Assembly (NCBI GenBank): GCA_020446425.1
Contig: JAGRES010000030.1
Span: forward strand, 1-64,000
Source of the DNA: Sphingobium sp.
GTDB lineage: Bacteria > Pseudomonadota > Alphaproteobacteria > Sphingomonadales > Sphingomonadaceae
Reading direction: 5' to 3'
DNA length: 64,000 nucleotides
The position numbers were made by a program, and so were the translations under genes. The first letter of the stretch is position 1, and every line of letters begins with the position of its first letter. Shown piece by piece: positions 10,050-20,398 of this stretch. The notes beneath the pieces are model-generated. The model saw only the letters and a program-made list of their open reading frames with translations, was not told the DNA's origin and searched no databases.

Positions 10050-10651
10050 AGGGGCACAACGCCGCGAACGCGCAAAAAGTCAAGCAAAGCGAGCAAAGGC
10101 AGGCCCTGAATCGTGAAATGCGTGCCGTCTATCGCGGAAAACAGCTGCGCGCCCGGCCCCTCGATACGGTAACATCCCACACACCAGCGGCAATTTTCCC
10201 AATCGCCATCCAGATATTGAGTGATGAAGTCATCGCTCAGGGGTCGCATGGTCATGCGCGCAGTATCAATATGACGCCAGACGGGCATGCCATTCTCACA
10301 GATCACGGCGGCACTGTGCAACTTGTGACGATTGCCCGAAAGAAGGCGCAGGATCCGGGCCGCATCGTCCCTGTCCGTGGCCTTGTCGATCATCGAGCCA
10401 TCTTCCAGCTCCAGAGTCTGGTCGCATCCCAGAACCAGAGCACCGGGAACCCGGGACGAGAGCTTCAACGCCTTCATTTCCGCCAGCGCATCAGCCAGTT
10501 GCCGCGCATTACGGCCTTCGGCGCGCAGGCCATCTTTCAGCGCCTCCTCATCTATATTGGGCGATACATAATGAAAGGGAACCCCGGCAGCTTCCAGCAT
10601 CTTACGCCGGCTGCTGCTTTGCGACGCCAGAATAAGCTCAGGTGGATTCAA
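10046..10651 (-). CDS. maf: Maf family nucleoside triphosphate pyrophosphatase
   Basis: House-cleaning enzyme that hydrolyses non-canonical or modified NTPs. The N-terminal LILASQSSSRRKMLEAAG motif is diagnostic, and VLGCDQTLELEDG contains the conserved acidic residue of the active site. 201 aa. Four-base overlaps with both ppsR and aroE indicate translational coupling. The exact nucleotide preference cannot be read from sequence. Confidence 0.93.
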   Translation of the reverse strand: MNPPELILASQSSSRRKMLEAAGVPFHYVSPNIDEEALKDGLRAEGRNARQLADALAEMKALKLSSRVPGALVLGCDQTLELEDGSMIDKATDRDDAARILRLLSGNRHKLHSAAVICENGMPVWRHIDTARMTMRPLSDDFITQYLDGDWENCRWCVGCYRIEGPGAQLFSAIDGTHFTIQGLPLLALLDFLRVRGVVPL

Positions 10652-11463
10652 TGGCTGATCTCGCGGTCGTTGAACAGGTTGATGATCGCTGCAGCCGCTT
10701 CCTCGATAGAGCGTCGGGTCATGTCGATTGTCGGCCAGTCCTGATCCGCGATCATCCGGCGGGCAAAGGTCATTTCTTCCTGCACGCGCTCAATATCGAC
10801 ATAAGCGGTTTCCGGCGACTGGTTGAGCGAGAGCAGGCGGTTGCGTCGGATCTGCACCAGCCGTTCCGGGTTGATGGTCAGGCCCACCACCATGGGATGC
10901 CGCAGCTGAAACAGGCTATTCGGCGGCGGCGATTCCGGCACGACCGGAATATTGGCGGTCTTGTACCCGCGATTGGCGAGATAGATGGACGTTGGCGTTT
11001 TCGAGGTGCGCGACACACCCACCAATATGATGTCGGCCTCCTCCCAATTTTCCGGCCCGACGCCATCGTCATGCGCAATAGTATATTGAATCGCCTCAAT
11101 CCGCGCGAAATAGGCCTCGTCCAATATATGCTTACGCCCCGGCCGGTTGCGCGTTTCCTGACCCAATATGTTCGACATAGCGTCGCTTGTGCTGTCGAGC
11201 GGCGCGACATGGGGCAAGCCCAGCGCGCGGCACTGATGCTCCAGCTTGCGGCGCAGCAGCGGGTTGGAGAGGGTGAACAGCACCAGGCCGGGATTGCTCG
11301 ATATTTCCTGCAATATGCGCTCGAGATGGTCTTCGGATCGAACCATCGGCCAGAAATGCCGTATCGCCTCGACATCCTCGAACTGGCCGATGGCCGCTTT
11401 GGCGATGCTCTCAAGAGTTTCGCCGGTGGAATCCGACAGGAGATGAAGGTGCAGGCGCGTCAT
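10648..11463 (-). CDS. ppsR: Pyruvate, phosphate/water dikinase regulatory protein (DUF299)
   Basis: Bifunctional kinase/phosphorylase that switches PEP synthase or pyruvate phosphate dikinase off and on using ADP and phosphate. The P-loop-like GVSRTSKTPTSIYLANRG is near residue 150. Starting at ATG 11463 (MTRLHLHLLSDSTGETL) gives 271 aa, normal for the family; an ATG at 11532 would add 23 residues and run across the DnaA boxes. First gene of the leftward operon leaving oriC. DUF299 next to hemE across the origin is the order known in Caulobacter and Rickettsia. Confidence 0.93.
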   Translation of the reverse strand: MTRLHLHLLSDSTGETLESIAKAAIGQFEDVEAIRHFWPMVRSEDHLERILQEISSNPGLVLFTLSNPLLRRKLEHQCRALGLPHVAPLDSTSDAMSNILGQETRNRPGRKHILDEAYFARIEAIQYTIAHDDGVGPENWEEADIILVGVSRTSKTPTSIYLANRGYKTANIPVVPESPPPNSLFQLRHPMVVGLTINPERLVQIRRNRLLSLNQSPETAYVDIERVQEEMTFARRMIADQDWPTIDMTRRSIEEAAAAIINLFNDREISH

Positions 11464-11710
11464 GGGATGACTGTGTTGGGGAGCTGTGGATAAATCAAGG
11501 GAGAGAATGGTGGATAATTGGACCTCATGCATTTTTGCCCGTTTTAACGATGGTTACCCACAGGTCGTGCACCGTGGCATAAATTCATCCACAGGGGGTG
11601 GATAATGGGGAAGAATGAGTCAGAAACACGCAAATTTGCTGTTTTTTCGATGGAAGAAATGTTGGCAAATCGGGGGATAATGCATAAACCCCACAATCAA
11701 CAGACCAACA

Positions 11711-11750
11711 TCTTAATCAATTATTAATATATATTAATAGAATATTTAGG
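11711..11750. other. AT-rich DNA unwinding element of oriC
   Basis: Forty bases with about 85% A+T, starting tcttaatcaattattaata, the most AT-rich stretch I see in the window. It lies between the DnaA boxes and hemE, as expected for the duplex region melted at initiation. The hemE ribosome binding sequence (TTAGGA) is at its right end. Confidence 0.75.
11713..11727. promoter_or_regulatory. Perfect CtrA-type binding motif within oriC
   Basis: TTAA-TCAATTA-TTAA matches the CtrA full site TTAA-N7-TTAA exactly. A third TTAA follows at 11734-11737 with a six-base spacing. In Caulobacter, CtrA bound at the origin represses initiation and also controls the hemE-side promoter. Whether CtrA acts here is inferred from motif and position only. 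Confidence 0.7.
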
Positions 11751-11756
11751 ACTTCC

Positions 11757-12812
11757 ATGAGCGCGGTTCCCGTCAAACCCCTGCTTGCGGTTCTCAACGG
11801 GGAACGGCAGGCTCTGGCACCCAAATGGATGATGCGTCAGGCTGGACGCTATCTGCCGGAATATCGAGAACTGCGCTCTGAAAAGGGCGGTTTCCTCGAG
11901 CTGGTCTATGATAGCGCGGCAGCGGCCGAGATTACATTACAACCGCTGGCTCGTTTTGGTGTGGGCAAGGGTGGTCTGGATGCGGCCATTCTTTTCTCCG
12001 ACATATTGATCGTGCCTTATGCCATGGGCCAGAAACTGTGGTTCGAGGCGGGCGAGGGGCCGCGTCTCGCACCGATATTGGCGGAAACGGATGTTGCGGA
12101 ACTGACACCTGACTGGTCGCGTTATGAAGCGATCTATGAAACGGTGCGGCATGTGAAGGCGCGCCTCAGCCCGGAAGCGACATTTCTCGGTTTTGCCGGC
12201 AGCCCCTGGACCATCGCGACCTATATGGTGGCGGGGCAGGGCAGCAAGGATCAGGCCGCGGCGCGGCGGCTAGCCTATGGCGATCCCGATCGTTTTCAGG
12301 CGATTATAGACGCGATTATCGACGCGACCGTGCCGTATCTTGTCGGTCAGATTGATGCGGGCGTGGATGCGGTGCAGTTGTTCGACAGCTGGGCAGGCAG
12401 CCTATCCCCGGCGCAATTCGAGCAATGGGTGATCGCGCCCAATCGCACCATCGTGGAAAAGCTGCGCGCCGCGCGCCCGGGCGTACCCATTATCGGTTTT
12501 CCCAAAGGGGCGGGGGCCAAGCTGGCGCGCTATGCTGCCGAAACCGGCGTCGATGCGGTTGGGCTGGATGAGACGGTTGATCCCGTATGGGCCAATGAGG
12601 TGCTGCCTAAAGGACTGCCCGTGCAGGGCAATCTCGATCCGCTGGCGCTGATCGCGGGCGGCGAAGCGCTTGACGGCGCGATAGACCGCATCCTTGCGGC
12701 TTTTCCCGAACGGCCCCATATCTTCAATCTCGGGCATGGCATTGTACTCGACACCCCGATTGCCCATGTGGAGCATATGCTTGCACGACTGGGAGGAGGA
12801 AGCACAGCATGA
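11757..12812 (+). CDS. hemE: Uroporphyrinogen decarboxylase
   Basis: Decarboxylates the four acetate groups of uroporphyrinogen III to give coproporphyrinogen III in haem synthesis. The N-terminal WMMRQAGRYLPEYRELR (residues 22-38) is the diagnostic motif, and GFAGSPWTIATYMV follows near 135. 351 aa, normal length. TTAGGA lies at a good distance before the ATG. It overlaps hemJ by four bases, so the two haem genes are coupled. It starts immediately at the edge of oriC. Confidence 0.97.
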   Translation: MSAVPVKPLLAVLNGERQALAPKWMMRQAGRYLPEYRELRSEKGGFLELVYDSAAAAEITLQPLARFGVGKGGLDAAILFSDILIVPYAMGQKLWFEAGEGPRLAPILAETDVAELTPDWSRYEAIYETVRHVKARLSPEATFLGFAGSPWTIATYMVAGQGSKDQAAARRLAYGDPDRFQAIIDAIIDATVPYLVGQIDAGVDAVQLFDSWAGSLSPAQFEQWVIAPNRTIVEKLRAARPGVPIIGFPKGAGAKLARYAAETGVDAVGLDETVDPVWANEVLPKGLPVQGNLDPLALIAGGEALDGAIDRILAAFPERPHIFNLGHGIVLDTPIAHVEHMLARLGGGSTA

Positions 12813-15728: not shown

Positions 15729-17030
15729 GTGAGTGATACAATATTTGCCCTTTCCAGCGGTCGTCCGCCTGCTGGTATCGCTGTCATTCGCATAAGCGGA
15801 CAATTATCGTTTTATATCAATGGTTTATTTGCGAACAACGATGATCCACCGTTGCGGGTTGCACAACTGCGTACATTGCGGAAGCCTGGCTCAGGTGACA
15901 TATTGGATCAGGTTCTGGTGCTGGGGTTTCGCGGACCCCATAGCGCTACTGGCGAGGATGTCATCGAATGGCACTGTCATGGCGGACAGGCCGTGGTGCG
16001 CGCTATATTGGATGCGCTTCATGGTCAGACAGCAGATATGGATCTGCGCGAGGCGCAACCCGGTGAGTTCACCCGGCGCGCTTTCGAGAATGGCCGGATA
16101 GACTTGAACGAAGCGGAAGGGCTGGCCGACCTGCTTTCCGCCGAGACGGAGACACAGCGCCGTTCGGCACTGCTGATGGCGGAAGGGCATTTCTCCCGCC
16201 GGTTGGATGGGTGGCGTACAGACCTGTTGCGCTGTGCGGCATTGACGGAATCGCTGCTCGATTTCTCTGATGAGGACGATGTGCCCGATGAAGGAGCGGT
16301 GGGAGAGCTGAAGAGCAGCTTGTGTCGACTAGGCGATGATATGCAGGCGCAACTTGCCGCGCCGTCGGCCGAGCGCTTGAACGATGGGATTCGTGTCGTG
16401 CTGGCCGGGCCACCCAATGCAGGAAAATCGACGTTGCTCAATGCGCTGGCGGGACGCGACGCGGCAATCGTCTCCGACATCGCCGGAACCACGCGGGACC
16501 GCATAGATGTGCCGGTTAGTCTGAACGGCATCGCGTTCACGCTGACCGATACTGCTGGCCTCAATGAGAAGAGTGAAGACCGGATCGAGCAGATCGGCAT
16601 TGATCGGGCACGCGTGGCGATTGATCAGGCCGACATATTATTGTGGTTGGGAGCGCCATCGGATTGCCCGCGCGAGGACGCGGTAAGAGTGTCGGCACAG
16701 ATGGATCGTGTGGATTGGCAAGCGGATGGGGGGACCGACCTGGCAGTGTCAGCGGTGACCGGTGAGAATATGGATAAGCTGGTCGATCTGCTCTGCGAAC
16801 AGGCTTCTCATCTTATTCCGGCTGAAGGCAGCTATGCACTGCATGCACGGCAAAGAGAGTCCGTTTCTCGAATGAAAGCGGAAATTGCGCAAGCTTTGAC
16901 ACAAGACGATCTCCTTATTGTTGCCGAGCATTTGCGCATGGCATTGGGAGAAATGGACAGGCTGGTGGGCCGAGCTGGTGTCGAGGATATGCTGGACACT
17001 TTGTTCGGGCGGTTTTGCATCGGCAAGTGA
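15729..17030 (+). CDS. mnmE: tRNA modification GTPase MnmE
   Basis: With MnmG, installs the carboxymethylaminomethyl group on U34 of certain tRNAs. GTG start. N-terminal formyl-THF-binding domain (1-120), helical domain, and inserted G domain with G1 GPPNAGKS (227-234) and G3 DTAG (274-277). The C terminus ends FCIGK, with the catalytic Cys. The usual G4 NKxD motif is not clear: the aligned region at about 323-326 reads AQMD. 433 aa. The next gene along is mnmG, with a parS site between them. Confidence 0.95.
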   Translation: MSDTIFALSSGRPPAGIAVIRISGQLSFYINGLFANNDDPPLRVAQLRTLRKPGSGDILDQVLVLGFRGPHSATGEDVIEWHCHGGQAVVRAILDALHGQTADMDLREAQPGEFTRRAFENGRIDLNEAEGLADLLSAETETQRRSALLMAEGHFSRRLDGWRTDLLRCAALTESLLDFSDEDDVPDEGAVGELKSSLCRLGDDMQAQLAAPSAERLNDGIRVVLAGPPNAGKSTLLNALAGRDAAIVSDIAGTTRDRIDVPVSLNGIAFTLTDTAGLNEKSEDRIEQIGIDRARVAIDQADILLWLGAPSDCPREDAVRVSAQMDRVDWQADGGTDLAVSAVTGENMDKLVDLLCEQASHLIPAEGSYALHARQRESVSRMKAEIAQALTQDDLLIVAEHLRMALGEMDRLVGRAGVEDMLDTLFGRFCIGK

Positions 17031-17042
17031 TCTGCACGGTGA

Positions 17043-17058
17043 TGTTTCACGTGAAACA
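17043..17058. other. parS centromere site 1
   Basis: TGTTTCACGTGAAACA, a perfect 16-bp palindrome identical to the conserved parS consensus bound by chromosomal ParB. It lies in the mnmE-mnmG gap, 5.3 kb from oriC and 3.3 kb from parB. Confidence 0.95.
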
Positions 17059-18966: not shown

Positions 18967-19614
18967 ATGACCGAGGAAGAAGCGAAGAACTGGATATGCG
19001 ATCATTTCGATGTTTCACGTGAAACATGGGCGCGGCTTGAGAGATATGTCGCTTTGCTGCTCGACGAAGCAGAGCGGCAAAACCTGATCTCCGCGTCCAC
19101 GAAGGACCATGTCTGGTCCCGCCATATAGTGGACAGCGCGCAATTGCTCTTGCATGCACCGGGCTCGGATGAGCCGTCTTTATGGGTGGATCTTGGCGCG
19201 GGGGCAGGGTTGCCCGGTATCGTGATCGCCATACTCTCCGATTATCGCGTCGCGATGATCGAAATGCGCAGAAAGCGCGTCGAATTTCTTCAGTCTGTGA
19301 TTGATCATCTCAATCTTACCAATGCCAGTGTGCATCTTTCCAAGGTCGAAAATATCAGACCGCAGCTACTTGGCGGGGGTGCGGCGTTGATCATCAGTGC
19401 CCGCGCCTATGCGCCGATGGAGCGCCTTGTCGCATCTGCGCATCACCTTGCGGACAAACAGACTGTCTGGCTGCTTCCCAAGGGACAAAATTATGAAAAT
19501 GAGTTGGCCATTGCCCAGCGGCTATGGCAGAGTGATGCACATGCCGTTCAGAGCGTGACTGCACCGGACAGCGCAATATTGGTTCTTCGAAACATTCGCA
19601 AGCGAGGTAACTGA
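18967..19614 (+). CDS. rsmG: 16S rRNA (guanine527-N7)-methyltransferase RsmG
   Basis: Methylates G527 of 16S rRNA using S-adenosylmethionine. The SAM-binding motif is WVDLGAGAGLPGIVIAIL (residues 75-92). The N-terminal FDVSRETWARLERY segment is encoded across a perfect parS site (19011-19026), so the conserved VSRET peptide and the ParB site share the same bases. 215 aa. It begins immediately after mnmG and ends four bases before parA. Confidence 0.96.
   Translation: MTEEEAKNWICDHFDVSRETWARLERYVALLLDEAERQNLISASTKDHVWSRHIVDSAQLLLHAPGSDEPSLWVDLGAGAGLPGIVIAILSDYRVAMIEMRRKRVEFLQSVIDHLNLTNASVHLSKVENIRPQLLGGGAALIISARAYAPMERLVASAHHLADKQTVWLLPKGQNYENELAIAQRLWQSDAHAVQSVTAPDSAILVLRNIRKRGN
19011..19026. 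other. parS centromere site 2, inside rsmG
   Basis: A second perfect TGTTTCACGTGAAACA, within the rsmG coding sequence (codons 15-20). It is 1,968 bp from site 1 and 0.6 kb upstream of parA. Confidence 0.95.
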
Positions 19615-19618
19615 AGCC

Positions 19619-20398
19619 ATGATCCGCATCGCCATCGCCAATCAGAAGGGGGGCGTGGGGAAAACCACGACCGCAATCAATCTGGCGACGGCGCTGGCCG
19701 CCACAGGGCAGCGGACCTTGCTGATTGATCTTGACCCGCAGGGCAATGCATCGACCGGCCTTGGCATTGGCCTGGCTGCGCGTGAATATTCCAGCTACGA
19801 TCTGCTGATCGGTTCTGTGCCGCTGCGTGAGGCGGTAATGCACAGCAAGGTGCCCAAGCTCGACATCGTACCCGCCACGCAGGACCTTTCGGGCGCGGAG
19901 ATTGAGCTGATAGATATCGAGGAGCGCACGCATCGCCTGAAAAACTGTCTCGACGATGCGGACGGGCAGTGGGACATTTGCCTGATCGACTGCCCGCCTT
20001 CACTGGGTCTGCTGACGGTCAATGCGATGGTCGCCGCGGAATCGTTGCTGGTGCCGTTGCAGTGTGAGTTTTTCGCGCTCGAAGGCCTGTCGCAGTTGCT
20101 CAACACGGTCGAGCGCATTCGCGGACGCTTCAACCCGACGCTCTCGATCATGGGTGTCGCGCTGACCATGTATGACCGTCGCAATCGCCTGACTGATCAG
20201 GTGGCGGACGATGTTCGCGCGTGCCTCGGCAATCTCGTGTTCGAAACGGTCATTCCGCGCAATGTGCGCCTGTCCGAAGCGCCGAGCCATGGCCTGCCTG
20301 CTTTGATCTACGATCATCGCTGCGTCGGGTCGGAAGCCTATATGGCGCTGGCACGTGAACTTATTGGCCGCCTGCCGCAGAAGGACATGGCGGCATGA
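19619..20398 (+). CDS. parA: Chromosome partitioning ATPase ParA
   Basis: Walker-type ATPase that moves ParB-parS complexes away from the pole or old origin. The deviant Walker A is QKGGVGKTTTAINLA (residues 9-23), followed by LLIDLDPQGNASTGLG and the Walker B-type ICLIDCPPSLG. There is no N-terminal HTH, so it is the chromosomal (Soj-like) type. 259 aa. Its stop overlaps the parB start (ATGA). Confidence 0.97.
   Translation: MIRIAIANQKGGVGKTTTAINLATALAATGQRTLLIDLDPQGNASTGLGIGLAAREYSSYDLLIGSVPLREAVMHSKVPKLDIVPATQDLSGAEIELIDIEERTHRLKNCLDDADGQWDICLIDCPPSLGLLTVNAMVAAESLLVPLQCEFFALEGLSQLLNTVERIRGRFNPTLSIMGVALTMYDRRNRLTDQVADDVRACLGNLVFETVIPRNVRLSEAPSHGLPALIYDHRCVGSEAYMALARELIGRLPQKDMAA

Follow-up and report, generated by a model that had tools for sequence, protein, structure and literature searches.

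A predicted chromosomal replication origin of the hemE type, with a conserved promoter-like block, in Sphingobium

The intergenic region between ppsR and hemE (293 bp) in a 64,000-nucleotide stretch of Sphingobium sp. DNA, referred to here as the window, is with little doubt the chromosomal origin of replication, oriC, and belongs to the known alphaproteobacterial hemE type. We favor this reading because the region combines a cluster of DnaA boxes with the lowest-GC stretch of its contig, lies at a local skew minimum and has a pair of parS sites nearby, and because the location between ppsR and hemE is kept in relatives and the GC skew changes sign at hemE in a genome of the same order that is assembled as one contig. 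The basis for the assignment consists of sequence features, conservation, local skew and parS positions, and the same observations support the original prediction, which had proposed an oriC here from the letters of the DNA alone. Hence, we can assign the origin of this genome to the known hemE locus with good confidence, and the family gains conservation data. A hemE-side location of the origin in the Sphingomonadaceae is already published, as parts of PMC4741004 make clear; the region is very probably an ordinary origin whose position matches that in known relatives, with the promoter-like block as the part that deserves follow-up.

Flanking genes, DnaA boxes and their conservation

The two genes that delimit the region (Table 1) were identified with NCBIfam profiles. 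Specifically, the product encoded to the left passes the cut-off of the PEP synthase/PPDK regulator subfamily and scores below that of the narrower PpsR equivalog. With ppsR on the minus strand and hemE on the plus strand the pair is divergent, and the profile matches on both sides agree with the earlier statements that the boxes lie between these genes and that gene direction reverses here. To the right, hemE is followed by a hemJ-like gene (below the family cut-off), rho and mnmE, and then by frames that, read by eye, are mnmG-like and rsmG-like. We take COG1806/DUF299 to be the PpsR family; on this assumption, the NCBIfam matches place the region between hemE and a COG1806 gene. According to parts of PMC1914354, the published origins of Caulobacter and Rickettsia are flanked by hemE on one side and by COG1806, a DUF299 gene, on the other, and to this extent the proposed match with the gene order of those two genera holds.

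Table 1. Positions in the window of the predicted origin, its candidate elements and the neighboring features.
Feature	Position	Strand	Basis or remark
Predicted oriC, ppsR–hemE intergenic region	11464..11756		Flanking-gene identities, boxes, AT content
ppsR, PEP synthase/PPDK regulator	10648..11463	-	NCBIfam profile
hemE, uroporphyrinogen decarboxylase	11757..12812	+	NCBIfam equivalog cut-off passed
DnaA box 1, exact TTATCCACA	11485..11493	-	9/9 columns invariant, window and seven close relatives
DnaA box 2, TTATCCACC, one mismatch	11509..11517	-	5/9 columns invariant
DnaA box 3, TTACCCACA, one mismatch	11554..11562	+	8/9 columns invariant
DnaA box 4, TCATCCACA, one mismatch	11585..11593	+	6/9 columns invariant
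DnaA box 5, TTATCCACC, one mismatch	11597..11605	-	2/9 columns invariant, worst kept
Single GANTC site of the region (GAGTC)	11617..11621		Motif scan
Conserved block TGTTGGC-N18-TAAACC, candidate hemE promoter	11660..11690	+	Proposed reading
Candidate -35 (TTGGCA), 17 bp, candidate -10 (TAAACC)	11662..11667, 11685..11690	+	Proposed reading
Weak DnaA-like match, TTATCCCCC, two mismatches	11672..11680	-	Inside the conserved TGTTGGC block
AT-rich stretch, candidate duplex unwinding element	11707..11746		Lowest-GC 40-mer of contig C26
CtrA-type full site TTAA-N7-TTAA	11713..11727		Weakly supported
parS, exact	17043..17058		Consensus scan; 5.3 kb from region
parS, exact	19011..19026		Consensus scan; 7.3 kb from region

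A scan with TTATCCACA recovered the same six boxes that had been tallied originally (one exact, four with one mismatch, one weaker), distributed over both strands as had been claimed and spanning 196 bp, which is within the 200 bp first given. The region has five boxes that differ from TTATCCACA by no more than one base, whereas 5000 dinucleotide shuffles average 0.15 such boxes, never exceed three and hence never reach five; the region thus contains several DnaA boxes beyond chance, as is looked for in an alphaproteobacterial origin between hemE and COG1806. These five are part of the 13 matches of this quality in the whole window, a total that one in 100 shuffles reached. The assembly of this genome comprises 2.73 Mb in 36 unordered contigs, and on the contig that carries the region (C26, 74,373 bp) the densest 200-bp stretch is this region, with its five boxes. 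Boxes 1 and 2 conform to a pattern, GTGGATAA-N(2-32)-GTGGATAA, with a single occurrence in the 2.73-Mb assembly (11486–11517), although the pattern was derived from the window and its uniqueness speaks of rarity, not of function. Across the assembly, one-mismatch boxes (157 + 143) are not commoner than matches to the reversed word (148 + 143), and it is therefore the clustering that counts. A search of five genomes for pairs of exact boxes on the same strand, no more than 30 bp apart, found none, a result that says little.

Relatives were gathered by a HemE search, and the best 80 of its 476 confirmed loci were compared. A divergent ppsR adjoins hemE in 77 of these best 80 of 476. L062, L066 and L069 were left out, as they had no ppsR match in the stretch examined (in L069 that stretch held only 133 bases before hemE), and the denominators used here are therefore 77 relatives or, when the window is included, 78 regions. 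Among these 77 of the best 80 of 476 loci, the region contains one box in six loci, two in eight, three in 36, four in 19, five in five and six in three. In the same 77 of the best 80 of 476, the regions total 24,543 bp and hold 249 boxes, whereas the 507,821 bp of flanking DNA hold 85, which amounts to a box density 60.6 times as high in the regions. Likewise, in 77 of 77 relatives (best 80 of 476) the region outnumbers any 300 bp of the flanks, where the maximum is two boxes per 300 bp. An alignment of the window with the seven relatives picked as nearest by HemE identity (80–83%) shows an uneven spread of invariant columns: they make up 30 of 45 in the boxes and 30 of 44 at 11659–11702, compared with 7 of 40 for the AT-rich stretch and 27 of 164 for the remainder, with boxes 1 and 3 the best preserved.

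The AT-rich 40 bp noted earlier as adjacent to the boxes are readily found, with 4 G/C in 40, the lowest value across the 74,373-bp contig. Within this stretch, a scan with the IHF consensus gives a single match, at 11715, which has one mismatch. We also considered whether CtrA controls this origin in the Caulobacter manner; the perfect site at 11713 was promising, but a full TTAA-N7-TTAA site is present in 4 of 78 regions (best 80 of 476), and in 1.4% of mononucleotide-shuffled regions, and the idea was set aside as a main claim. The genome has a ctrA gene (NF045991, above cut-off), and parts of PMC8116508 report no effect on growth from the loss of CtrA in Sphingomonas melonis.

A conserved promoter-like block upstream of hemE

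A conserved block separates the last good box from the AT-rich stretch; on balance, we read this block as the hemE promoter, the transcript of which would cross the AT-rich unwinding region. We prefer this reading because the block is placed upstream of hemE such that a transcript would run over the AT-rich stretch, and because there is precedent in Caulobacter, where hemE transcription is described as important to replication (parts of PMC8959179) and a promoter within Cori as essential for it (parts of PMC4287350). Among the best 80 of 476 loci, TGTTGGC is present in 76 of 78 regions and the reversed word in 0 of 78; in the same set, TAA follows after exactly 18 bases in 66 of the 76, after 19 in three, and is absent within 14–22 bases in seven. 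In a set of 50 non-redundant blocks TGTTGGC is invariant by selection, as it was the word used for finding them, and the fair count is the 76 of 78 (best 80 of 476). TTGGCA and TAAACC resemble the Caulobacter RpoD consensus, given as TTGNCNS / GCTANAWC in parts of PMC8144410, although imperfectly, with A for S after TTGGCA, C for W in the -10 and the GC one base off.

It is possible, if not what we expect, that the block is instead the binding site of an origin regulator or a hairpin, either of which would be compatible with oriC. The retention of TGTTGGC in 76 of 78 regions (best 80 of 476) would suit a binding site, and a sigma-70 scan of 11300–11900 returned no promoter; the constant distance of 18 bases to TAA in 66 of 76 (best 80 of 476), however, resembles that between -35 and -10 elements, the block lies upstream of hemE, and TTGGCA fits the TTGNCN of the Caulobacter -35 (parts of PMC8144410). 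As for a hairpin, GGGG and CCCC flank a GCATAAA stretch in the near clade and could pair, but a covariation screen gave scattered pairs, the 15 best of which showed no nested helix, and there was no Rfam match with E up to 1 in 11300–11900, such that both the hairpin and an RNA element were rejected as candidates.

GAGTCAANNTGTTGGC is present in 2 of 385 genomes of the class, in both on a contig other than that of hemE, and its wider spread therefore looks like chance. GTCAANNTGTTGGC occurs, at any location, in 67 of 147 genomes of the order; the copy in this genome is on contig C3, away from the origin, and the count is not used as evidence. Among the papers listed in literature searches on the motif or on GANTC at origins, we recognized none as describing the block, which is no proof that it is unpublished.

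It is also worth considering the block in light of GANTC methylation. GANTC occurs 411 times in the 78 regions (best 80 of 476), versus 93.6 after mononucleotide shuffling and 26 for the control word CTNAG; within this set the count per region is one in the window, one to four in the seven nearest relatives and up to 11 in a Sphingomonas region. A protein with a RAMA domain, which we expect in CcrM, is present as a candidate CcrM in 20 of the 21 genomes searched, this one included. Upstream of TGTTGGC, GTCAA-N2 is found in 66 of 78 regions and GAGTCAA-N2 in 58 of 78 (best 80 of 476); the latter is missing in the window and in its seven nearest relatives. As a kind of observation, GANTC enrichment is not new, since the origins of C. 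crescentus and closely related species are reported to contain several such motifs (parts of PMC3973325) and enrichment in alphaproteobacterial intergenic regions is known (parts of PMC8116508).

These patterns invite a speculation that we regard as rather unlikely in its full form: that Sphingomonadaceae origins carry a lineage-specific GAGTCAA-N2-TGTTGGCA-N17-TAA, in which a GANTC (CcrM methylation) site would be coupled to a hemE promoter that fires through the unwinding region, and that re-initiation would be gated by how the site is methylated once it has been replicated. In the window and its seven nearest relatives the candidate promoter core is retained, but the methylation site is missing at this position, probably through loss. 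If the proposal is true, this clade and the others would offer a natural comparison of ungated and gated origins; if the block and GANTC work as proposed, methylation control of initiation would be testable outside Caulobacter.

parS sites, GC skew and the position of dnaA

The assembly was scanned with the parS consensus, and the two sites in Table 1 are its only places within two mismatches of that consensus, both being exact. The first is just past mnmE (which ends at 17030), and the second is about 600 bases ahead of a parA-like gene at 19619. On C26, the cumulative GC skew reaches its minimum at 11.0–11.25 kb and the keto skew at 10.5 kb; to the left of the region the contig extends for only 11 kb, over which the slope is shallow.

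The skew was examined over longer distances in two other genomes. In G016, which belongs to the same order and is a single contig of 3.85 Mb, 20 stretches of 20 kb were sampled: the four of four before hemE (437,883) are negative, the 11 at 438 kb–2.32 Mb are positive and the five from 2.5 Mb are negative. The sampled skew moves from -0.102 to +0.070 across hemE and turns negative again between 2.3 and 2.5 Mb, which is the pattern that an origin at hemE would produce with the terminus on the opposite side of the chromosome. In G003:C1 (same genus, 2.67 Mb, 18 stretches) there is no clean flip at hemE; the stretches directly to its left and right are both negative (-0.080 and -0.035), positive values come from three at 1.08–1.42 Mb and from the seven lying further to the right, and the six lying further to the left vary in sign. 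The skew of G003 either counts against the oriC reading or reflects a weak, rearranged skew.

The gene dnaA is on a different contig, at C31:66799, which agrees with a published statement that in the Sphingomonadales a location of this gene near ori is not conserved (parts of PMC8116508). The local skew minimum of C31 (-403, at 36 kb, then a steep rise) is deeper than that of C26 (-148, at 11 kb).

It is very unlikely that the ppsR–hemE region is a DnaA-regulated promoter or a DnaA-titrating site with the true origin elsewhere, for example near dnaA. No 200-bp stretch of C31 has more than one box, the parS sites of the assembly are near ppsR–hemE and not on C31, and the G016 skew flips at hemE; the reported lack of conservation of dnaA near the Sphingomonadales ori (parts of PMC8116508) points the same way. 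These observations outweigh what such a reading has in its favor, namely that DnaA acts in transcriptional regulation as well in Caulobacter (parts of PMC3193534) and that dnaA sits on the contig with the deeper skew minimum.

Away from hemE, G016 has four boxes per 300 bp in L179 (C1:3000001-3020000) and three in L172 (C1:1500001-1520000), which are possible DnaA-titrating or regulatory sites; box clusters alone are therefore no proof of an origin. That the cluster described here is an inactive remnant or a product of chance is scarcely credible, as five boxes arose in 0 of 5000 shuffles, boxes 1 and 3 are kept, in contrast to most of the bases around them, and the box count exceeds that of any 300 bp of flank in 77 of 77 relatives (best 80 of 476), even if conservation is incomplete in boxes 2, 4 and 5 (5, 6 and 2 of 9 columns, respectively) and three- and four-box clusters per 300 bp exist elsewhere in G016.

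A proposed course of initiation and the known origins

With the ppsR–hemE region as oriC, we infer a course of initiation in which DnaA-ATP would bind the box cluster at 11485–11605 and bring about opening of the AT-rich 11707–11746 beside hemE. Helicase would be loaded at the opened stretch, and two forks would depart from it in opposite directions; ParB bound to the two parS sites 5–7 kb away would segregate the new origins. The promoter-like block probably drives hemE transcription across the unwinding region, and this may aid opening, in keeping with the described importance of hemE transcription to replication in Caulobacter.

The arrangement is that of known systems. Caulobacter crescentus Cori is alike in its flanking genes, clustered DnaA boxes, AT-rich stretch and hemE side (parts of PMC1914354 and PMC8959179), a likeness at the level of arrangement. 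Cori has five CtrA sites, whereas the window has one TTAA-N7-TTAA, which is mostly missing in relatives (best 80 of 476). The predicted origins of Sphingopyxis granuli TFA, a member of another genus than that of the window, and of other Sphingomonadaceae belong to the same family and share the hemE side, conserved boxes and a putative unwinding element (parts of PMC4741004).
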